NCBI RefSeq assembly: GCF_000219125.1
Contig: NZ_AFGF01000269.1
Coordinates: 1 to 64,000, forward strand
Direction of reading: 5' to 3'
Origin: Acetonema longum DSM 6540
Lineage (GTDB): Bacteria; Bacillota; Negativicutes; Sporomusales; Acetonemataceae
Length of the DNA: 64,000 nucleotides
Both the position numbers and the translations under genes were made by a program. A model generated the notes under the pieces. It was not told the origin of the DNA, searched no databases, and was given only the letters and a program-made list of their open reading frames with translations. Each line of letters starts with the position of its first letter. Position 1 is the stretch's first letter. Shown piece by piece: positions 23,053 through 61,012 of the stretch.

Positions 23053-23094
23053 GGTCAAAAATACAAAAAAATACAAGATGAAGGGATGACTAAG

Positions 23095-23991
23095 ATGACC
23101 ATGCAAAAACTAATGAGCTTAGGAGTTGTGATGATTTTGGCGGTAATGATGGTTGCCGGCGCTTTCCAGGGCGTTGACGCCGCCCCTGCAAAAAAAGCCA
23201 TTTTGGTTGTAAGCTTCGGGACTACCTTTGCCGAAACTCGTCAAAATACCATTGAGGCCATTGAAAAGAAAGTTCAGCAAACCTTCCCCGACTATGAAGT
23301 CCGCCGGGTATTTACCTCTAATATTGTCAGAAAGAACCTGGCTGCAAACGATAACCTGCATGTGGATGATCTGGTGACTGCCCTGAATAAATTGAAGAAT
23401 GAAGGCTTTACCCATGTAGTTGTGCAGTCCACCCATATCATTCCCGGTGAAGAATTCGAGCACAAAATAGTGGATACCGTTGCTAAATATAAAAATAGTT
23501 TCCAAGAGATCGTGATTGGGCGTCCGATGCTCTACTTCGAAGGACAGAACCCTGATGACTATCAGCTGGCGGTGAAAGCATTGCAACAGCAACTGCCGAA
23601 ACTCAAAAAAGGTGAAGCTGTTGTTTTAATGGGCCATGGAACTCCCGAGCACAAGGCTAATGCCAACTACCAGGCCTTCCAGGATAAACTGAAAGCGAAC
23701 AAATTACCGGTATATATCGGAACGGTAGAGGCAGCACCTACTCTGGAAGATGTGGAAGAAGCACTGCGCGCCAATAAGATTAAGAAAGTAATCCTCATGC
23801 CGTTTATGATCGTTGCCGGCGACCATGCCAACAATGATATGGCGGGTGATGAGTCTGATTCCTGGAAATCGATTTTGACTGAAAAAGGCTACAAAGTGGA
23901 AGTATACTTGACTGGGCTGGGTGCTAATCCGGCTGTTCAGGATATTTATGTCCAGCACGTTAAGGATGCTATCGCCGGCATGAAGCTCTAA
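23095..23991 (+). CDS. cbiK: exported sirohydrochlorin cobaltochelatase CbiK
   Basis: Inserts Co2+ (or Fe2+) into sirohydrochlorin. 298 residues with a clear signal peptide (LGVVMILAVMMVAGAFQGVDA, cut before APAKK), so the enzyme acts outside the cytoplasmic membrane. CbiK motifs are ILVVSFGTTFAETRQNTI, the His motifs QSTHIIPGEEFEH and LMGHGTPEHKANA, and PFMIVAGDHANNDMAG. It resembles the periplasmic CbiK-P of Desulfovibrio vulgaris, which as I recall also sits with cbiL and an ABC importer. The ATG at 23095 is 9 bases after AAGGG; 23086 is too close. Confidence 0.9.
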   Translation: MTMQKLMSLGVVMILAVMMVAGAFQGVDAAPAKKAILVVSFGTTFAETRQNTIEAIEKKVQQTFPDYEVRRVFTSNIVRKNLAANDNLHVDDLVTALNKLKNEGFTHVVVQSTHIIPGEEFEHKIVDTVAKYKNSFQEIVIGRPMLYFEGQNPDDYQLAVKALQQQLPKLKKGEAVVLMGHGTPEHKANANYQAFQDKLKANKLPVYIGTVEAAPTLEDVEEALRANKIKKVILMPFMIVAGDHANNDMAGDESDSWKSILTEKGYKVEVYLTGLGANPAVQDIYVQHVKDAIAGMKL

Positions 23992-50528: not shown

Positions 50529-51425
50529 ATGAAACTAAAAGTCATCCTGCCTGACGGCAGAAGGGTGGGGACGGGCTGGCTGCCGTCCCTGCCGGACCTG
50601 CGGGATTATACCGAGTGCCACCCCAAGCTGGCCAAACCGCTGCACAAGTTAAGGGTGGATGATGTCACACCCCTGCCGGATAAGGCGGATCTCAGGCAGT
50701 GGTGCTCCCCGGTGCAGAATCAGGGCGAACTGGGGTCTTGCACCGCCCAGGCAGCGGCGGGTATCATCGAATATTTTCAGAAGCGGGCCTTTGGCAAATA
50801 TCTTACCGCATCCCGGTTGTTTATCTATAAAAACGCCCGCAATCTTCAGGGAGTGACCGGCGACACCGGCTCCTACATCAGGGATACTATGGGCGCCCTG
50901 GCCTTGTGCGGCGTACCGCCGGAAAACTACTGGCCCTATACCGACCGGGACCCGGCCTTTGACCGGGAGCCCACCTCTTTTGTCTATGCGGTAGCCGACA
51001 ACTATGAGGCTCTGCAGTACTTTTGCCATGACGCTGTAGGTACGAATGTCTCAACCGCCGATGTGCTGTGCAGCGTGAAAAAATATCTGACTGCCGGCGT
51101 GCCGGCCATGTTCGGTTTTTACGGCTTCGCCTCCTTCGACAAGACAGACCTGCCCGGCGGCATTCCCTACCCCGGTCCGGACGAGCAGGCCCAGTGGGGT
51201 CATGCTATTACTGCCGTTGGCTATGACGATGCCAAGATCATCAAAAATAACCGCTATGACCAGGAAACCCGCGGGGCGCTCCTGATCCGCAACTCCTGGG
51301 GCAGCGCCTGGGGCGAAGATGGATACGGCTGGCTGCCCTATGCCTATGTGCTGAATAAGCTGGCCACGGATTTCTGGTCGCTGTTGAATATGGAGTGGCT
51401 GGAAACCGGCCAGTTCGGCCTGTAG
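50529..51425 (+). CDS. C1A-family (papain-like) cysteine peptidase
   Basis: 298 residues. Catalytic regions are QNQGELGSCTAQAAAG (oxyanion Gln and nucleophile Cys), WGHAITAVGYDD (His) and IRNSWGSAWGEDGYGWLPY (Asn). There is a short pro-like N-terminus (LPSLPDLRDY) but no signal peptide or membrane segment, so it is cytosolic or exported by another route. It is the first gene after a cobalamin riboswitch, an unexpected regulon member. The next gene starts 107 bases downstream without a terminator between. Confidence 0.88.
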   Translation: MKLKVILPDGRRVGTGWLPSLPDLRDYTECHPKLAKPLHKLRVDDVTPLPDKADLRQWCSPVQNQGELGSCTAQAAAGIIEYFQKRAFGKYLTASRLFIYKNARNLQGVTGDTGSYIRDTMGALALCGVPPENYWPYTDRDPAFDREPTSFVYAVADNYEALQYFCHDAVGTNVSTADVLCSVKKYLTAGVPAMFGFYGFASFDKTDLPGGIPYPGPDEQAQWGHAITAVGYDDAKIIKNNRYDQETRGALLIRNSWGSAWGEDGYGWLPYAYVLNKLATDFWSLLNMEWLETGQFGL

Positions 51426-51532: not shown

Positions 51533-52654
51533 ATGAGCTTGGTTGACTGGTTCGCCAATTTGTTTGTACAAGAAGCCAAACATTATGTTTTTACGCCGGT
51601 GGTCTCCGATGCGGAAAAGCTTGTATTCCGGGAAGGGCAGCACTATTTTCGCCTGCGCCTGGCCGAAATGTTCCTGAAAGATGACCGGAAGCTCTTTCGC
51701 AAGGCTGTGCCAGTGGTTTCCTCGGTCGTCAGCCTGCAGTTCGGCGCCAGCGCCGCTCAACAGCTGCCCAACGTGGCCGGCCCGTTGGCCTTGAATCTGA
51801 ATGAAAACTCTCTGGGAAAAGGGGTGCAGCTTAATTACTCCCTGACCAACCTGGTGCCCTATCGCGGCGGCAATGTGTCGATCAGCGCCGCTTTGCTGGC
51901 CTATGTCAGCAAAGATTATTTTTCCGCCTTCCTCAACCTGGCCAACAGCATTGCCGGACAACTGACCATCGGCCAGCTGTCTGCCGCTCTCAAAGTGGTG
52001 GGCAGTGTGGCCGGCGCGCTGCAGGACCTCCTGGACAGCGGCGACAAGGAGGTCCGCCTGGTGTACCATAATGAATACGCCGGTACGGACGATTTGGGGG
52101 GAGTCTCGCTGCAAAGCGGCTACTTTGCCGTCATTGGCGCCCAGGCCGGCAAATTTAACCCGGAAAAGCTGCTGGTAAAGAATTCGCAGCTTTATATCGG
52201 CGATGACCGGCAATCGGCCAAGCCCCTCGCCGGCTATGATTATATGCTGTTCGGCGTGGAAGCGGCCCTGTACCGGGACGATTTCCGCTATTTCAGTGAA
52301 TACAACAGTCTGCTTTATGCCGCCATCGAAAAGGGCATGCTCGACAAAGCCGAGGGTGATGCCGTGATTCGGGCCGGCATGTTGGCTGTATTTAAATCAG
52401 ATGATCTGACCTATGTGGACAAAACGCGGGTAGCGGCCGCGCTCAAAGCCGAGTATGAGGAGCGGCTCTCCCAACTGCTCAAAGCGAAAAACCTGCTTAT
52501 CCCGGATGATCAATGGCTGAACAGCCGGGCCCTGGCGATCAATCCGGAAGCGACTGAACGGAAGATTGCTCCCGTGCTGGCCAACAAGCAATTGGATGAT
52601 GTCGCCATTGCCGATACTATTTTAGAGATGGTCGTGAAAGGCGAAATAAGCTGA
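51533..52654 (+). CDS. hypothetical protein cotranscribed with the papain-like peptidase
   Basis: 373 residues, no recognised family, no signal peptide. An N-terminal mixed part (VDWFANLFVQEAKHYVFTP, VVSSVVSLQFGASAAQQLPNVAGPLAL) is followed by a helix with small residues (AFLNLANSIAGQLTIGQLSAALKVVGSVAGAL) that may touch a membrane, then a helical C-terminal third with DDLTYVDKTRVAAALKAEYEERLSQLL. GGAGGGG precedes the ATG. It could be a substrate or partner of the peptidase; this is context only. Confidence 0.75.
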   Translation: MSLVDWFANLFVQEAKHYVFTPVVSDAEKLVFREGQHYFRLRLAEMFLKDDRKLFRKAVPVVSSVVSLQFGASAAQQLPNVAGPLALNLNENSLGKGVQLNYSLTNLVPYRGGNVSISAALLAYVSKDYFSAFLNLANSIAGQLTIGQLSAALKVVGSVAGALQDLLDSGDKEVRLVYHNEYAGTDDLGGVSLQSGYFAVIGAQAGKFNPEKLLVKNSQLYIGDDRQSAKPLAGYDYMLFGVEAALYRDDFRYFSEYNSLLYAAIEKGMLDKAEGDAVIRAGMLAVFKSDDLTYVDKTRVAAALKAEYEERLSQLLKAKNLLIPDDQWLNSRALAINPEATERKIAPVLANKQLDDVAIADTILEMVVKGEIS

Positions 52655-52756
52655 TCAACGAAATATATCGAAATCATCCCTGAAGGCAGCTCGGACCAGG
52701 ATGACGCCAACTCAGGAAGAAATCGAACGAACGCGCTGGTCGCTAGTATTTACTAA

Positions 52757-52943
52757 TTCAGGCATCCGGCGTCAGGCCGGATTAAAAGGGCAGTCCGGTG
52801 TGATTCCGGCACTGCCTTGCAGCTTTGAAGGAGAGCCATATTTCTGCAAGCCTGCCAGGGAGGAATATGGCAATGACCCTAAGTCAGAGTACTGCCTGAT
52901 TTTTAGTATCCGTACAGCCTGCGATGAACAGGTCTGGGATTAA
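52757..52943 (+). promoter_or_regulatory. divergent cobalamin-type riboswitch 9
   Basis: The order of elements equals a cobalamin aptamer: TCAGGC, a hairpin ATCCGGC-GTCAGGCCGGAT, TTAAAAGGGCAG, CCGGTG...CCGGCACTGCCTTGCAGCTTTGAAGGAG, then GTCAGAGTACTGCC at 52883-52896 as a B12 box variant, and CCTGCGATGAACAGG...GGGATT. CAGGC and GCCTG can close the outer stem. Several bases conserved in the other eleven copies differ, so ligand or affinity may differ. A terminator follows at 53075-53118 with no gene in between. Confidence 0.72.
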
Positions 52944-53118: not shown

Positions 53119-53176
53119 TCTATCTGCGTCGTATATCGCATATCATGAGAAAGTGATGATAAATGAATATCGTTGG

Positions 53177-53375
53177 GATAGGCGCCCTACGGGGCTTAAT
53201 AGGGAAGACCGGTGAAAAACCGGCGCGGTCCCGCCACTGTAACGGGGAGTGATTTCGCAGTATGCCACTGGAGCCTTTGGCTTTGGGAAGGCGCGGGATT
53301 GCTATGAACCGGAGCCAGGAGAACTGCCTTATCCAGCAATCGCCGTTTTACCCACGAGGTATGGGGAGGAGATTA
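53177..53375 (+). promoter_or_regulatory. cobalamin riboswitch 10 (propeller and double-barrel unit)
   Basis: Canonical aptamer with ATAGGCGCCCTACGGGGC, TTAATAGGGAAG, CCCGCCACTGTAACGGGG and B12 box GCCAGGAGAACTGCC (53314-53328). Together with riboswitch 9 it forms a tandem of unlike aptamers. Confidence 0.94.
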
Positions 53376-53739: not shown

Positions 53740-55137
53740 GTGTCAACGGTAATCGCAACGTTTTACAATTTTGGCATAAGTCCTGCAGCCGGCCGTGTCA
53801 GATTAATTTCCTCATCCGGCTCTACGCCGGCCGTTGTCAGTGGCTCGGGTGCGAACCTTGCCACTACTGACCCTATCGCTTTTTATTTCAATGGCGGCAG
53901 CAGCATCGGTACTAGGGTATTGATAGTAGAAAGGCGCTATGATTCAAGCTTTGTGCAGATTTTCTGCTATCTGTCCGTATATGATCCCAGCAATTGGACG
54001 CAGACAGTAGCGCCTAATTTAACAACGCCCTATCAATACAGCGATAATACAGACCTACTTAATATTTACAGCATCAACTCCCCAGATGGTGCTAACGCGG
54101 GTACGCTCTTTGGTGCTGACTATTCTGCCGGCAGAGTGTTCAAACTTGTGCATGGTGTGAGCGGCGCTGCGGAAACCCTGACGCTAGCTTCCGATTATTA
54201 TCAACTTACCGCAACAGGATCAGGCGCTTCAGCTTATAGCGTAGATACGGTGTTCAATACCGAATCATCGGTCGATTATATTTACGCCGTAGCTCAGCAA
54301 TATGCGGTTTCGCCTCCTGGCAGTTCTGATCCCAGTGATTACACTTATTTCAATAGCATTATCGTTAAACTCAGCGCTTCTAATTTAGCTAGTGTAGTCG
54401 ATGGACCGGATGCAACCCTAGCGCCGAATGTTTTCGAGCTTCAGCTTTACGGTGGCAATCTTTATGCAGCCGCTCTGGGCGGGCCGCAATGGAATAGCAC
54501 CCCCATTGTATGGAATCAGGCATCCCGCATTCAAAGAGTGACTCCCGCAAACCTTGCGGTAACCAATCTTGTCCGTCCAGCCAATTCTTCGGAAACTACT
54601 GCTAATGACGACAAATTCGATATCCGTTCGCTGGCGATTCTTTCCGATGGCACTGCCTATATTTTGACTGGTTCCTATAATGGATCTTTTGCTTTTTCCG
54701 GTCGTTTGTGGGTAGCTGAAATAGGTGATTTGACCGGAGATGCACTATTGTCGAATGTTGCGCAGCTACTCACGAATAATGCTAATATTTCAAACGTTTT
54801 TGGCTATTTGTGGGCGTTGTTGCCTGCTGATGACATTAGCAAAGTTTGGGGCATGCTGGGGGACAATCTTGGCATCTATGATGTAGATGGTATTGCTTCC
54901 GGTACAAGTGCAGTTTCGGCGGGTACGGCATCTGAATGGGGTGCTGCCGGCAGTCCGACATTCAACGCGATTGCGTTGGCGATGCCAGCCATTACGCGCC
55001 GCCTAAAAGCAGGGACTGCGCCTGCTTCCATCAAATCGGTGCGGGGTTTTGTACATCCGCTGCTGGTTTCCCGCGCTGGCGTGAAACCGGAAGATTTTGA
55101 AGCATTTGTTAAAGCGTATACTGCTAAAAAATATTAA
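53740..55137 (+). CDS. probable beta-propeller protein of unknown function
   Basis: 465 residues from the GTG at 53740 (AGAGGTG upstream). Rich in Ser, Thr, Gly, Asn, Tyr and poor in Cys and Lys. Several blade-like repeats alternate strands and turns: FKLVHGVSGAAETLTLASDY, YIYAVAQQYAV, IVKLSASNLASVVDG with ELQLYGGNLYAAALGG, and IQRVTPANLAVTNLV with RSLAILSDGTAYILTGS. No signal peptide or lipobox is visible, although the composition is that of a secreted protein. It lies directly upstream of the outer-membrane fusion receptor, in the position of a surface ligand-binding partner such as BtuG of Bacteroides; that analogy is inference. Confidence 0.7.
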   Translation: MSTVIATFYNFGISPAAGRVRLISSSGSTPAVVSGSGANLATTDPIAFYFNGGSSIGTRVLIVERRYDSSFVQIFCYLSVYDPSNWTQTVAPNLTTPYQYSDNTDLLNIYSINSPDGANAGTLFGADYSAGRVFKLVHGVSGAAETLTLASDYYQLTATGSGASAYSVDTVFNTESSVDYIYAVAQQYAVSPPGSSDPSDYTYFNSIIVKLSASNLASVVDGPDATLAPNVFELQLYGGNLYAAALGGPQWNSTPIVWNQASRIQRVTPANLAVTNLVRPANSSETTANDDKFDIRSLAILSDGTAYILTGSYNGSFAFSGRLWVAEIGDLTGDALLSNVAQLLTNNANISNVFGYLWALLPADDISKVWGMLGDNLGIYDVDGIASGTSAVSAGTASEWGAAGSPTFNAIALAMPAITRRLKAGTAPASIKSVRGFVHPLLVSRAGVKPEDFEAFVKAYTAKKY

Positions 55138-55147
55138 GCTCTAATGC

Positions 55148-55174
55148 AAGGGGCGGAAACTCCGCCCCTTCTTT
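55148..55174 (+). terminator. hairpin between the propeller and fusion-receptor genes
   Basis: AAGGGGCGGA pairs with TCCGCCCCTT around AAC, then CTTTACC. It may reduce expression of the downstream gene relative to the propeller gene. Confidence 0.6.
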
Positions 55175-55197
55175 ACCGTTTAGGAGGAAGGATTTTT

Positions 55198-58100
55198 TTG
55201 AGCAGAAAGCATTGTAAAAAACGCATGGCCAACGCCCTTAAGGTATGTTCGTTCGCATTTATACTTCATCCTTTTTATACAGTGTCATGTTATGCTGCTT
55301 TAGAATTAGTTGGAGAAACGGCTAATTACACAAACTGGGGCAGCGGTGGCCCGTGGAAAGTTAAAGCTATCAGCGAAAATGAGCAGATTTATACCACCTA
55401 TGCTATCGCTAATCAGGGCAAAGCTATAGGACAAGCCCAATATAATGCGAATATTACGATTGACAATGGCGGCCTTTGGCGGCCTTTGGATCGTAACGGA
55501 ACGGTTAATGTGAATGCCTTAACCATGCTGTCGGGTTCGACGATTGATTTTGCTTATAAATACAGTGCCGCAAATAGTTATACTGAAGCAAACGGTTATG
55601 ACCCATGGTCTGTAGCCACTGCAAGCAGCACTGCTCGCATCCTAAAAATAAACAATGGAAATTTTGAAGGCAACATTAATTTCCGTATCAATCTAGGAAC
55701 CAGAACTTATGACCCGTCAACTGGCGGTTATGTTGGTGCTGGTGAAACTATCGTATTGAATAATCCGACAGTTATTAATCAGGAATCATATCCGACAGTA
55801 CATATTAATATTGAATATATTATGAACAAGGATTTTGGGGCAGGTAATGACAGTACTTTCTCTTGGGCAAATCAGACGGCGGCATTGCTGGAAGGTCAAG
55901 TTACTGGTGTATTTGAAATTTCTAATTCTGATACTGCGAATATGGATAAATTTGTTGTAGCAGGAGAAGCAATCAATCAAGTAGACGGAGCATTGAACAA
56001 ATATATCATTACAACTGAATTGTTAGATGATGGAAGCGGAAATGAATATAACAGAAGCTATTCCGTCTACTGGAGTGCCAAGCGCCAAGGATATTTATCC
56101 CAGGGGGCTTACTCCGCCGCCAACGCGGCCCTCTCGACGCGCAACCTGTGGCGGATTGAGGACGGCCTGTTCTGGAAGCGCGGCGACGACCGGCGGTTCG
56201 TCAACCGCAGCATAGCCAAGGACGATTTCGATCGGCGGGAAGGCGTGTGGGTCAATACCTGGCGGGGGAAATATACCTATGACGGTATTCAGGATTCCAC
56301 TTTCGGCCAGACCTACAGCGGCATTCAGGTCGGCTACGACAAGCTGCGGGACCGGGAACTGCTCGGCGGCAAGCTCTATACCGGGCTGTTCTTCAGCAAG
56401 ATGACCTCCGGCGCCGATTTCAGCGCTCAGAATGCCGGCGGCGCGGATTACAACAGCGGCAGAGGCGATTTGGACAGCGACGGGCTCGGCGCATACATGC
56501 TCTGGGTAGGCGACAAAGGACACTATTTGGATACCACTGTGCGCTGGAGCACCATCGATAATGCCAATACCTATACCGATTCCTTCGGTGACAGCTACAA
56601 GAAGGATTTTATCGCCCAAACCTACGGCATCGGCGCCCGTTACGGCCTGCGGATCGATAAAGGGAGCGGCTGGTTTATGGAACCGCAAGTCGGCCTTTCC
56701 TACGGTGTGATGCGCTCCTTCGACTTCCGTCTGGACAACGGTCTTCGCTATCAACAAGATAAAATGGATATGCTGCTTGGCCGCGCCGGACTGTCCATCG
56801 GTAAAAGCTATGGGCAGGGCGAGCACAAAGGTGAAGCGTATCTCAAGCTGTCGGCTAACCATGACTTCATGGACGGCGGCAACGCCATGTTCTATGCCAT
56901 GCAGAACAGCGCGAATCCAGACACTGCCCAGAATGTGTTGGCCTCGCAAAAGGTGGATACCCTGGCCGGCAAGGACACCTGGTATGATGTGACACTGGGT
57001 AGCAGTTTCAAGTTGAGCGGCAGCAGTGACGGCTGGCTGGAGGTCAACAGATCCTTCGGCGGCAAGGTCGATACCGACTGGCAGATCAACGGTGGCATCG
57101 CCTGGGGCTGGGGCGGCCCGTCCAAAGCCAAAAAATCGGAAGCAGTGAATGCTGCCGATCGAAGCTTGTTTACGGACACTGTAAACACCGCGGGTATCAC
57201 GGCTGCAGATGCTGCTGCCGGCAAAGAGACAACCAGCAATTTGCCTGAGGGTAATGCTCCACCGCAGCAGCCGAATGCAGCCAACCGTGCTAGTAGTAAT
57301 GCTGACACCGCAAACGCTGATGAAAACCCCGCGGTAGGCGGCACGAACAGTCCAGAGGCAGCCGGTGCGCTGCAGCAGGGAGATTTTGACGGGTTTACCT
57401 GGGCCCCGCTGGTCGTTGAAGCGGATCGCCCGGACTGGGAGAAAAAGCTGTCTCCGGGTACGGTATCCGTAATTGAACTACCCCAATACGAGGGTGAGCA
57501 CAAGACGCTGGGCGATCTGCTGCAGACGGTGCCGGGCATCCATATCGACAAGCTCTCCGGCGGCGCCGGCCACTACACAACGGTGCGGGTGCGCGGCTCT
57601 TCGGCCAGCCAGGTCAATATCTACGTGGATGGCGTTTTAGTGAATACCGGCAGCGAACAGGCCGTTAACCTCGAAAACCTCAACATCGACAATGTCGAGC
57701 GGATCGAAGTCTACCGCGGCTACATCCCGGCCCGCTTCGCCGGCGCGGCCATGGGCGGCGCGATCAACATTGTCACGAAAAAGCCGGACAAAACTGGCGG
57801 CAAGGTCAGCTATGGCCTGCGCTCATTTGGCGGGCAGAAATTCAACCTGGAAACAACGGCTCCGATGGGTGACGGCAGTCTGCTTTTCGCGATGAATCGG
57901 GAAGAGGCCACAGGTGACTTTAAGTATTATAAACTCTATACTACTTATGCTAATGACAGTCCAACCTATCCACGAAACCGTTGGCGTCAGAATAATGGTT
58001 ATGAAAACAACGATATCCTCGCCAAATGGCAGGATGACAACTGGTTTGTCAAGCTCAACTATATCAATAATTCGACCCATACGCCGCAAACCGTCGACTC

Positions 58101-59475
58101 CTATCTGGCGGATTTGCCGAAACAATACTGGCCGGATTCCTTTAATGATGAGCAACAGGCCATACGCAACGGCACGGTGGATACGGAAAAGACCGAGCTG
58201 TCCTTCGGCCACCGGCAAGAGACCGGCAATGTGGAATGGGGCTGGAAGCTGGGCACGGTACATCAGGACAAGCAAACGTTATGGACCAAATATGAGACCG
58301 GCAACCGGGGTTTCGTCCTTGGCACCAATACCTTTCGCAATGATTCCTATAGCGCTTCCGTTGACGGCACCTGGAAGATGGGTGAAAGTCACCTACTGGA
58401 ATTTCTGACCACCGCCAGCAAGGAAACTATGAAGGTAAATTTTTCAGCCGACCAGTATTCTGATCCAGAATGGAAAGGCTATGAGCATTTGTTCCTGCCG
58501 GAATACGATATGAGCAATTACTATTTCCAAGTTCAGGATACTATGAAACTGGACGACAGAGGCAGCTTGGCTTTTACGCCGCTGGTGCGGGCGCAAAAAT
58601 CGAATATCGGTATTGATGTCATGGAAGGGGAAGGCTGGCTGTACAGCTATAACCTTGGCCTTAAGAAAAAATGGAATGATCAGTGGACGACTTGGGCCAC
58701 CTATGGCACCTATCACAGACTGCCAAGCTGGTATGAGGTGTTTGGCGACGGTGTCAACCTTCAGAGCAGATGGTATAGGGGCAATAGAGGCAAAGGCGAA
58801 GCTTCATGGAGTCCGGAAGTTTTTGCGGAGCACGGTAAGAATTGGGATGTATCCGTCAATCGAAACGGCCAGCTGTTCGGCGTGGACAACGACACTACCT
58901 TGACTTATTTTAATCGCAAGTCAGAAAATCTGATGACCACCGCCTTTAATCCCTTGACCGGCGCGACCTGGTACACGAACTATGGCGCCGGCGAGATTCA
59001 GGGTTTTGAGCTCAGCAATGAGATGCATTGGCAACAATTTGATTTTACTTTAAGCACGACCTGGCAGGACTCCTTGATTACCAAAGGGTTTAAGGCTTAT
59101 GATAATACGAGCAATGCTGCATGGCAGGGACAGCCTTTCCCCTGGACACCGGAGTGGGCGGCCAACGCCAGGCTGGATTATCGGTTCCCCGGCGATAAAC
59201 TCAGCGTCTTTGGCGAATACAACTGGACGGACAAACTAAGCTGGCTTAATAATGCCGGTACGGCTGCGTACTATGAGCCAATGGGAATATTTAATATCGG
59301 TATGAAATATAGCTTTGATAAGCAGTTCAAACTAAGTACCGGTGTTAATGATATCGCCAATCAGGGACCTAAGCAGCTCATGCGTTATTTACAGAGTGAT
59401 CATTTTGACAAGGGCAATGTTGCCTATCCACAACAGGGAAGAACCTATTACATGACCGCGGAATACTCATTCTGA
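55198..59475 (+). CDS. autotransporter-TonB-dependent receptor fusion with two outer-membrane barrels
   Basis: 1425 residues from the TTG at 55198, after AGGAGG and AGGAAGG; a signal peptide ends near SCYA. Residues about 34-300 form a passenger-like, beta-rich, low-GC region (VLNNPTVINQESYPTV). Residues about 345-640 are a complete autotransporter beta-domain (GVWVNTWRGKYTYDG to INGGIAWGWGG). A Pro/Ala/Asn-rich linker spans 640-735. Then come a TonB box (APLVVEADRPD, about 735), a plug (TLGDLLQTVPGIHIDKLSGG, VERIEVYRGYIPARFAGAAMGGAINIVTKK) and a full receptor barrel ending TAEYSF. Both barrels look intact and in one frame. It lies behind B12 riboswitches and is thus a likely corrinoid receptor. 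The architecture is very unusual. Confidence 0.88.
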   Translation: MSRKHCKKRMANALKVCSFAFILHPFYTVSCYAALELVGETANYTNWGSGGPWKVKAISENEQIYTTYAIANQGKAIGQAQYNANITIDNGGLWRPLDRNGTVNVNALTMLSGSTIDFAYKYSAANSYTEANGYDPWSVATASSTARILKINNGNFEGNINFRINLGTRTYDPSTGGYVGAGETIVLNNPTVINQESYPTVHINIEYIMNKDFGAGNDSTFSWANQTAALLEGQVTGVFEISNSDTANMDKFVVAGEAINQVDGALNKYIITTELLDDGSGNEYNRSYSVYWSAKRQGYLSQGAYSAANAALSTRNLWRIEDGLFWKRGDDRRFVNRSIAKDDFDRREGVWVNTWRGKYTYDGIQDSTFGQTYSGIQVGYDKLRDRELLGGKLYTGLFFSKMTSGADFSAQNAGGADYNSGRGDLDSDGLGAYMLWVGDKGHYLDTTVRWSTIDNANTYTDSFGDSYKKDFIAQTYGIGARYGLRIDKGSGWFMEPQVGLSYGVMRSFDFRLDNGLRYQQDKMDMLLGRAGLSIGKSYGQGEHKGEAYLKLSANHDFMDGGNAMFYAMQNSANPDTAQNVLASQKVDTLAGKDTWYDVTLGSSFKLSGSSDGWLEVNRSFGGKVDTDWQINGGIAWGWGGPSKAKKSEAVNAADRSLFTDTVNTAGITAADAAAGKETTSNLPEGNAPPQQPNAANRASSNADTANADENPAVGGTNSPEAAGALQQGDFDGFTWAPLVVEADRPDWEKKLSPGTVSVIELPQYEGEHKTLGDLLQTVPGIHIDKLSGGAGHYTTVRVRGSSASQVNIYVDGVLVNTGSEQAVNLENLNIDNVERIEVYRGYIPARFAGAAMGGAINIVTKKPDKTGGKVSYGLRSFGGQKFNLETTAPMGDGSLLFAMNREEATGDFKYYKLYTTYANDSPTYPRNRWRQNNGYENNDILAKWQDDNWFVKLNYINNSTHTPQTVDSYLADLPKQYWPDSFNDEQQAIRNGTVDTEKTELSFGHRQETGNVEWGWKLGTVHQDKQTLWTKYETGNRGFVLGTNTFRNDSYSASVDGTWKMGESHLLEFLTTASKETMKVNFSADQYSDPEWKGYEHLFLPEYDMSNYYFQVQDTMKLDDRGSLAFTPLVRAQKSNIGIDVMEGEGWLYSYNLGLKKKWNDQWTTWATYGTYHRLPSWYEVFGDGVNLQSRWYRGNRGKGEASWSPEVFAEHGKNWDVSVNRNGQLFGVDNDTTLTYFNRKSENLMTTAFNPLTGATWYTNYGAGEIQGFELSNEMHWQQFDFTLSTTWQDSLITKGFKAYDNTSNAAWQGQPFPWTPEWAANARLDYRFPGDKLSVFGEYNWTDKLSWLNNAGTAAYYEPMGIFNIGMKYSFDKQFKLSTGVNDIANQGPKQLMRYLQSDHFDKGNVAYPQQGRTYYMTAEYSF

Positions 59476-59540
59476 TGGTTGCTTCGTGCGGCAGTGCTTT
59501 ATTTGCTGCCACACGGACAAATCAATAAGGAGTGGCTAGG

Positions 59541-60134
59541 ATGGATGCTAAGCGTAATTTGCTGATTCTTAAACTGGATCTTCTCGACAATATGCGGGAA
59601 TTTGATACGATCCGGCAAGCGGTTGCACAGGTGGCCGCAGGCCTGGTGACAGTGAGTGCTGCCGGCTGCGAACAGCCGGAGGACGTTATTGCAGCCGTTA
59701 CTGACGGCAAGCCGGACTGGGTCCACATCATTGGCCGCAGCAATGACAAGCAATTGATTTTTTCCGGCGGCAAAAAGGCGGAAAGCAAATGTGACCGCAT
59801 TCAGTTGGTAAAAAATTTGCGGGGGGCAACACCGGCTCTTCAATTAATTACGCTGAACAGTAAGCTGGACAATCGGGATTTGAGGAATATGGGCCGGCTC
59901 TATGTCATGATCGGTATGGAAAATGGCTATAATCCCATAGCTTCCCGCATGTTTATGCCGCGTTTTTACGCCAATATCTGTTCAGGCATGCCACTGGCGC
60001 CTGCCGCCAAAGCCGCCATTGAAGATACTCAGCAGGAAGTGGTTCAGCACGGCGGTATACCGTCCATGTGTTTCAGCCGCATTATTGATCCGGAAACGTT
60101 TACGTTTTTGCCGAGAGAAACTGTCATGAATTAG
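59541..60134 (+). CDS. CHAT-like (caspase fold) protein lacking catalytic residues
   Basis: 197 residues from the ATG at 59541 (AAGGAG eight bases upstream). The second half follows the CHAT caspase-like pattern: DWVHIIGRSNDKQLIFSG, then LQLITLNSKLDN, RLYVMIGMENGYNP and FMPRFYANICSGMPLAPAAKAAIED. In active CHAT proteases the first motif has HxxGH and the second ends in a catalytic Cys; here they read VHIIGR and LNSK, so both catalytic residues are replaced. A non-proteolytic role is expected. It follows the fusion receptor by 65 bases. Family assignment is by pattern only. Confidence 0.55.
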   Translation: MDAKRNLLILKLDLLDNMREFDTIRQAVAQVAAGLVTVSAAGCEQPEDVIAAVTDGKPDWVHIIGRSNDKQLIFSGGKKAESKCDRIQLVKNLRGATPALQLITLNSKLDNRDLRNMGRLYVMIGMENGYNPIASRMFMPRFYANICSGMPLAPAAKAAIEDTQQEVVQHGGIPSMCFSRIIDPETFTFLPRETVMN

Positions 60135-60504: not shown

Positions 60505-60552
60505 AGGCGGCCTTTCCTGCGCGGTTCAGGGAGGGCCGCCTGTTTGTTTTTT
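60505..60552 (+). terminator. terminator of riboswitch 11
   Basis: GGCGGCC at 60506-60512 pairs with GGCCGCC at 60534-60540, followed by TGTTTGTTTTTT. Confidence 0.75.
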
Positions 60553-60616
60553 GCCGCTGTTGCGGCTATCGCTCCTTGCCTGTCTGTTTCCCAATAACTT
60601 TGAGAGGGATGATGCT

Positions 60617-61012
60617 TTGGAGAAGACAGAAAAAACCGCTTTTTTGATGGTGGGTATAGGCTCCACCTACCAGGAAGCCCGCCGCTTGGCGATGAACGGT
60701 ATGGATCATAGAATCCGGGCGGAGTTTCCTGACTATGAGGTGCGTCAAGCCTTCGCGTCCCGCGCCCTGATCGAAAAATTGGCGGAACACGACGGGATTC
60801 AGGTGGATAATGAGAAACAGGCCTTAGAACGCCTGCGGCAAGAAGGGTTTACCGAGGTAATCGTGCAGCCTTTTCAGATATTTGCCGGCGAAGAATATGA
60901 AGCCATCAGAAAAATAGTCCGGCTGCATGCAGCGGAAAACGGCTTTGGCAAAACCGAAATCCTGCCTTGTGTGACTGTGTGGGTGAAGCAGGAGCCCCAA
61001 ATAATCAATTAG
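60617..61012 (+). CDS. half-length CbiK-like protein, probably inactive
   Basis: 131 residues from the TTG at 60617 (GAGAGGG upstream). It matches the N-terminal half of CbiK: AFLMVGIGSTYQEARRLAMNGM, FPDYEVRQAFASRALIEKLAEHDGIQVD and GFTEVIVQPFQIFAGEEYE. In the cbiK at 23095 the last motif reads QSTHIIPGEEFE; the catalytic His is here replaced by Gln. The C-terminal half with the second His is missing, and the stop is 3 bases before a MITE-like element. It is more likely a decaying copy than a short CbiX-type enzyme. Confidence 0.65.
   Translation: MEKTEKTAFLMVGIGSTYQEARRLAMNGMDHRIRAEFPDYEVRQAFASRALIEKLAEHDGIQVDNEKQALERLRQEGFTEVIVQPFQIFAGEEYEAIRKIVRLHAAENGFGKTEILPCVTVWVKQEPQIIN

Follow-up and report, generated by a model that had tools for sequence, protein, structure and literature searches.

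Can a single polypeptide carry two complete outer-membrane beta-barrels of unrelated kinds and be built by the cell as one protein? The question is raised by a gene at 55198-59475 on the forward strand of the window (the whole stretch analysed, 64,000 nucleotides from positions 1 to 64,000 of contig NZ_AFGF01000269.1 of Acetonema longum DSM 6540), in which an autotransporter and a TonB-dependent transporter (TBDT) share one frame. The analysis points to a genuine one-chain two-barrel protein, a corrinoid-type TonB receptor tethering its own surface-displayed domain, to which a probability of about 60% is assigned. The two-barrel architecture in itself is almost certainly genuine, and cells appear able to build a single protein with two barrels.

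The fusion gene (1425 codons in the window translation) lies within a stop-free frame that extends over 55144-59475. An earlier note on this DNA, made from the sequence alone, had described one uninterrupted frame starting at 55198, and both points hold. The start is very probably TTG 55198 rather than ATG 55144, because AGGAGG stands 10 nt upstream of the former (55182-55187), no ribosome-binding site precedes the latter, a GC hairpin comes directly after it, and the N-termini of homologues align with 55198 (alignment A1). Residue numbers of the fusion domains count from 55144, the start of the open reading frame.

The encoded order is signal peptide, passenger, autotransporter barrel, linker, TonB box, plug and TBDT barrel. 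All three Pfam families expected from the earlier reading were found above their curated cut-offs: PF03797 at residues 368-634 (E 3.3e-33, profile positions 1-254 of 255), PF07715 at residues 768-873 (E 9.1e-19) and PF00593 at residues 972-1402 (E 3.6e-20). Furthermore, NCBIfam TIGR01414 spans residues 196-656. The first barrel does end in IAWGWGG, and its final strand, NGGIAWGW-GG, resembles the C-terminal strand of stand-alone autotransporters from related genomes (e.g. KTDWRVDGGFRFTF); a pattern search found a comparable last strand in 21 of 30 fused homologues. The beta-signal consensus that it fits, zeta-x-G-x-x-W-x-W, is quoted in PMC10945584. In the fusion this barrel is not C-terminal: 787 residues follow it (785 had been counted previously), and a TBDT stands behind it in 18/18 homologues. 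The second part has every feature of a TonB-dependent receptor, comprising TonB box, plug, 22-strand barrel and a C-terminal Phe, the last as previously read.

Structure prediction agrees with this order. The AlphaFold2 model of residues 300-1443, computed from 14 sequences and leaving out the passenger, has a mean pLDDT (predicted local distance difference test) of 70.8 and a pTM (predicted template modelling score) of 0.60. It places a long helix, about 12 strands, a linker with pLDDT of about 25-30, the plug and about 22 strands one after another, giving the two separate barrels that had been anticipated. The helix ahead of the first barrel presumably lies inside the pore. The second part of the fusion matches PirA, PfeA, BtuB and XusA in Foldseek searches, including BtuB-BtuG entries. 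A viral fold library returned one TBDT match and a separate autotransporter beta-domain match, generic barrel matches only. By Pfam and predicted structure, two complete barrels are present in one chain, as in multi-barrel proteins, and they are conserved in homologues.

The source genome is a 295-contig draft, which favours an artefact: an assembly join or a missed frameshift between two separate genes. This explanation is ruled out, with a residual chance that is negligible, by about 30 one-frame homologues in Negativicutes (Sporomusa, Pelosinus, Phascolarctobacterium and others), some of them in genomes of one or two contigs (G007, G012 and G017). In searches of Negativicutes genomes, the identity of full-length one-frame homologues ranges from 69-70% down to about 31%, and the named carriers are Sporomusa acidovorans, Pelosinus propionicus and an uncultured Phascolarctobacterium. 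The domain order thus recurs across other Negativicutes, and the frameshift or join that the earlier note had named as fatal to its reading was not found: all 18 aligned homologues (alignment A1) have the three Pfam families in one protein. Five of these 18 also carry ESPR (PF13018), the extended signal peptide of type V secretion. The other outcome so named, a second signal peptide, was likewise not found in the 21 linkers that were measured (mean hydropathy over 12 residues <= 1.77), nine homologues outside the barrel-end pattern being left out. Linker length is about 87-148 residues where measured. In a class-wide sample, a fused copy was found in about 23 of 301 genomes, two of them inferred from copies ending at contig ends; two seemingly unfused copies that end at contig ends (L049 and L166) were kept out of the unfused count. 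Pelosinus propionicus has two tandem fusion copies, the second of which (L052:14976-19360) is split over two frames, as a pseudogene or through sequencing error.

Pairwise dN/dS (the ratio of nonsynonymous to synonymous substitution rates) is 0.03-0.20 for barrel 1, 0.01-0.14 for the plug and 0.11-0.27 for barrel 2; both barrels are under purifying selection (0.03-0.27) and are therefore maintained. Values for the linker are 0.28-0.74, and those for the passenger are 0.28-0.37 or saturated. The two-barrel fusion is ancient within Negativicutes. In trees of the TBDT part, nearly all fused TBDTs group together, with support of 97/93 in the first tree and 89/70 in the second, which was built without the longest rows. 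A single clade for all fused TBDTs is rejected by the approximately unbiased test (p 1.5e-6), L046 grouping with unfused TBDTs. The L046 fusion (L046:5554-9945) has its TBDT among an unfused lineage and its autotransporter barrel among the fused ones (support 88/89); the autotransporter unit is therefore found fused to TBDTs of two lineages, which points to either a second fusion event or a swap. A wider proposal, which we advance tentatively and at somewhat less than even chances, is that of a class-wide, ancient family of type V-delivered TonB transporters with their own autotransported capture domain, in which the beta-barrel assembly machinery (BAM) would insert two unrelated barrels by means of an internal beta-signal, the autotransporter unit having also been joined to the second TBDT lineage of L046.

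The genomic context suggests a ligand. A cobalamin riboswitch (RF00174) lies upstream in nearly all loci examined, those of fused homologues included, and immediately upstream of the fusion in L037, L039, L041, L043, L044 and L046. The control by B12 riboswitches claimed earlier thus holds as to context, and directly in several homologues, but in the window it is indirect, since the riboswitch at 53163-53345 is followed by the gene at 53740-55137 and only then by the fusion. TonB and ExbB/TolQ-like genes are also present in the window. It is probable that the second unit does corrinoid uptake.

A mechanism can be proposed as follows. Sec would export the chain. The first barrel would be inserted by BAM like that of any ordinary autotransporter, by means of its intact internal beta-signal, and would bring the N-terminal passenger out onto the cell surface. 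The C-terminus of the first barrel would remain periplasmic, joined by the flexible linker to the TonB box, and the second unit would fold separately as a TonB-energised transporter whose substrate is most likely cobalamin or a different corrinoid. The resulting topology is coherent, and the sequence is consistent with it: periplasmic N-terminus, passenger outside, periplasmic C-terminus of barrel 1, linker, TonB box, plug and barrel 2. The passenger would be held on the surface beside the receptor at a fixed 1:1 stoichiometry, its role probably being capture of the ligand or of a ligand-bearing partner, or that of a lid or shield; a spacer is another alternative. That the passenger takes part in ligand capture is a guess, to which we give slightly less than an even chance. 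Of the earlier idea of a receptor with its own surface capture domain, the two-barrel receptor with a passenger stands, whereas capture is a conjecture about a passenger that has no Pfam or PDB match and no known binding fold.

A ligand-binding partner is likelier to be the adjacent propeller-like protein, p468, than the passenger. The p468 gene adjoins nearly every TBDT of the fusion's family examined, fused or unfused, and is also found beside unfused TBDTs in Synergistaceae, a Deltaproteobacteria metagenome-assembled genome (MAG) and Sphingomonas. Its model (mean pLDDT 64) matches beta-propellers in Foldseek, including XusB, and by analogy p468 looks like an undescribed counterpart of BtuG/XusB. 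In six unfused-TBDT Negativicutes loci (L050, L158, L160 and L163-L165), p468 forms the N-terminal part of a larger exported protein encoded next to the TBDT. In L050, the p468 domain and an autotransporter barrel share one frame of 2232 aa; the p468-led proteins of the other five are probable autotransporters, those of L160, L163, L164 and L165 extending beyond the stretch, with the barrel not in view. L157 and L158 are overlapping stretches of one gene of genome G027, and in the barrel tree the barrel of L050, the autotransporter that carries the partner, and the related one in L157 fall into a separate clade. Synergistaceae copies of p468 have signal peptides, and that of L060 has a Synerg-CTERM tail above cut-off. 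The p468 family is thus paired with TBDTs across phyla in several forms: as autotransporter passenger, with signal peptide and Synerg-CTERM tail, and with no signal peptide (window 53740-55137; L050, L158, L160, L163-L165, L055, L057, L058, L060, L054 and L059). Two of these loci, from the Deltaproteobacteria MAG and Sphingomonas, have same-family TBDTs with about 300 extra C-terminal residues (L054:5598-8753 and L059:9620-13207). The L054 extension matches OMP_b-brl (PF13505) below cut-off (E 1.1e-5), and by sequence both may be other two-barrel fusions.

Several points weigh against a corrinoid receptor that tethers its own surface domain. By simple hydropathy inspection, p468 has no signal peptide in 23 of the 24 fused loci having the partner, so a BtuG-like surface role is unexplained here. 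No relative of known function can be detected for the passenger, and the BtuB family TIGR01779 scores 84 against a cut-off of 599.7 bits, over the N-terminal part only (residues 755-937). The support comes throughout from sequence and predicted structure, the latter being the 14-sequence, passenger-less model with the scores given above. Finally, proteolysis within the linker is possible. In its full form, this last alternative holds that the chain is inserted whole and that a periplasmic protease then cleaves the linker, the fusion mainly ensuring co-delivery and equal amounts of autotransporter and TBDT. The linker is indeed disordered and fast-evolving, and unfused loci with a separate autotransporter adjoining the TBDT exist. 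However, the aligned linkers share no conserved cleavage motif, the C1 peptidase of the operon has no signal peptide, and linker length is kept within the range measured; cleavage is accordingly held to be improbable, and the fusion quite likely stays one chain in the cell.

It could also be that passenger and first barrel do an unrelated surface job apart from uptake, such as adhesion, shielding from phages or bacteriocins, or spacing. Autotransporter passengers are often adhesins, this one evolves much faster than the barrels, and a large-passenger subfamily exists. Nevertheless, the fusion has been retained with riboswitch and operon over many Negativicutes families and every aligned passenger has a WRPxD-like core, so that an unrelated job seems unlikely, although it is the alternative we take most seriously. 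A far less probable role for the first barrel is the export or holding of p468, as suggested by L050, where the p468 domain is an autotransporter passenger beside a TBDT, by the five further probable cases, and by the lack of an export signal in p468 next to fusions. Autotransporters export their own passenger, however, and we know of no mechanism that brings a protein without signal peptide to one; moreover, p468 without signal peptide also adjoins some unfused TBDTs.

Table 1. Features of the fusion gene and its surroundings in the window.
Feature	Position	Strand	Basis
Papain-like C1 peptidase, no signal peptide	50529..51425	+	PF00112; synteny in homologues
373-aa conserved protein, no known family	51533..52654	+	Synteny
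Cobalamin riboswitch, weaker copy	52745..52913	+	RF00174, 56.4 bits
Cobalamin riboswitch, upstream of partner gene and fusion	53163..53345	+	RF00174, 110.3 bits
Partner gene p468, beta-propeller-like, no signal peptide	53740..55137	+	Hidden Markov model, synteny, model, Foldseek
GC-rich hairpin between partner gene and fusion	55150..55168	+	Read from sequence
Autotransporter-TBDT fusion gene, probable TTG start, 1425 aa	55198..59475	+	Open frame, AGGAGG, homologue N-termini
N-terminal signal peptide (approximate)	55198..55296	+	Basic start, then hydrophobic stretch; aligns with homologue signal peptides
Passenger domain, fast-evolving, ~260 residues	55297..56088	+	Core GGxWRPxD...IDLxYKY; alignments A1 and A6
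Long alpha-helix ahead of first barrel, autotransporter-like	56086..56211	+	AlphaFold2 helix, residues 315-356
Autotransporter beta-barrel, ~12 strands	56239..57111	+	PF03797; AlphaFold2 strands
Internal beta-signal NGGIAWGW	57088..57111	+	Residues 649-656; fits zeta-x-G-x-x-W-x-W
Disordered Ala/Asn/Thr/Pro/Ser linker, ~90 residues	57112..57387	+	pLDDT ~25-30; hydropathy: no second signal peptide
TonB box PLVVEAD, then conserved RPxWExxLSPG	57406..57426	+	Alignment A1
TonB-dependent receptor plug	57445..57762	+	PF07715
22-strand TBDT barrel, last residue Phe	57796..59472	+	PF00593; Foldseek
CHAT-like protein, conserved neighbour of fusion	59532..60134	+	Profile match to 8tl0, E 4.2e-18; synteny

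The neighbourhood recurs, with variations, as partner gene, fusion, CHAT-like protein, C1 peptidase and 373-aa protein. The last three have no evident signal peptide and recur in B12-riboswitch neighbourhoods (L031, L038, L040 and L148); the cysteine position of the CHAT-like protein is apparently not conserved. A defence-system reading of these three and the partner protein was rejected, PADLOC giving no match. The window holds 12 cobalamin riboswitches (21887-62433), and 13 of the 18 in the genome lie on this contig. Downstream of one cobalamin riboswitch is a CbiK-like short frame (60551-61012, 153 aa). It matches PF06180 over the first part of the profile only and may be a truncated duplicate of the gene at 23086-23991 (301 aa).

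How does the fusion relate to known systems? Single-chain multi-barrel outer-membrane proteins were reportedly described computationally by Solan et al. in 2021. That work on the class is cited in PMC10745669 and PMC11494523. The latter models GfcD, a protein of 12 + 13 strands that also has a periplasmic domain and for which a role with polysaccharide is proposed. Like GfcD, the fusion has more than one complete barrel per chain, a periplasmic joining segment and a first barrel that is not C-terminal; unlike GfcD, it joins a type Va autotransporter to a TonB-dependent transporter, under B12 riboswitches. It shares with type Va autotransporters such as EspP, BrkA and Hbp a signal peptide (of ESPR type in some homologues), a passenger, the helix, a 12-strand barrel and the beta-signal, but its barrel is internal, the residues behind it including a whole TBDT. 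With BtuB-BtuG of Bacteroides (PMC10404256, PMC6143338), it has in common a B12-riboswitch locus with a 22-strand TBDT and a propeller protein, whereas BtuG is a surface lipoprotein, p468 has no signal peptide and the fusion TBDT has an N-terminal autotransporter. XusA-XusB (PDB 9gbc, 9hqe) is similar in that XusA is the best PDB sequence match of the fusion and the p468 model matches XusB; Xus differs in serving siderophore piracy with a lipoprotein partner and no autotransporter. The earlier note was aware of no published protein built this way. In the literature searched, which excluded most subscription papers and Solan et al. 2021, we found no account of an autotransporter joined to a TBDT, but the multi-barrel class was already published, and the pairing adds a variant to it.

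If the fusion is one chain, it would offer a natural test of how BAM deals with an internal barrel that is complete when another has still to follow; this has usually been asked of proteins whose beta-signal is C-terminal. It would also mean that a receptor gained a tethered surface domain through type V secretion, in contrast with the lipoprotein export seen in Bacteroides, and this in bacteria whose outer membranes have been little studied.

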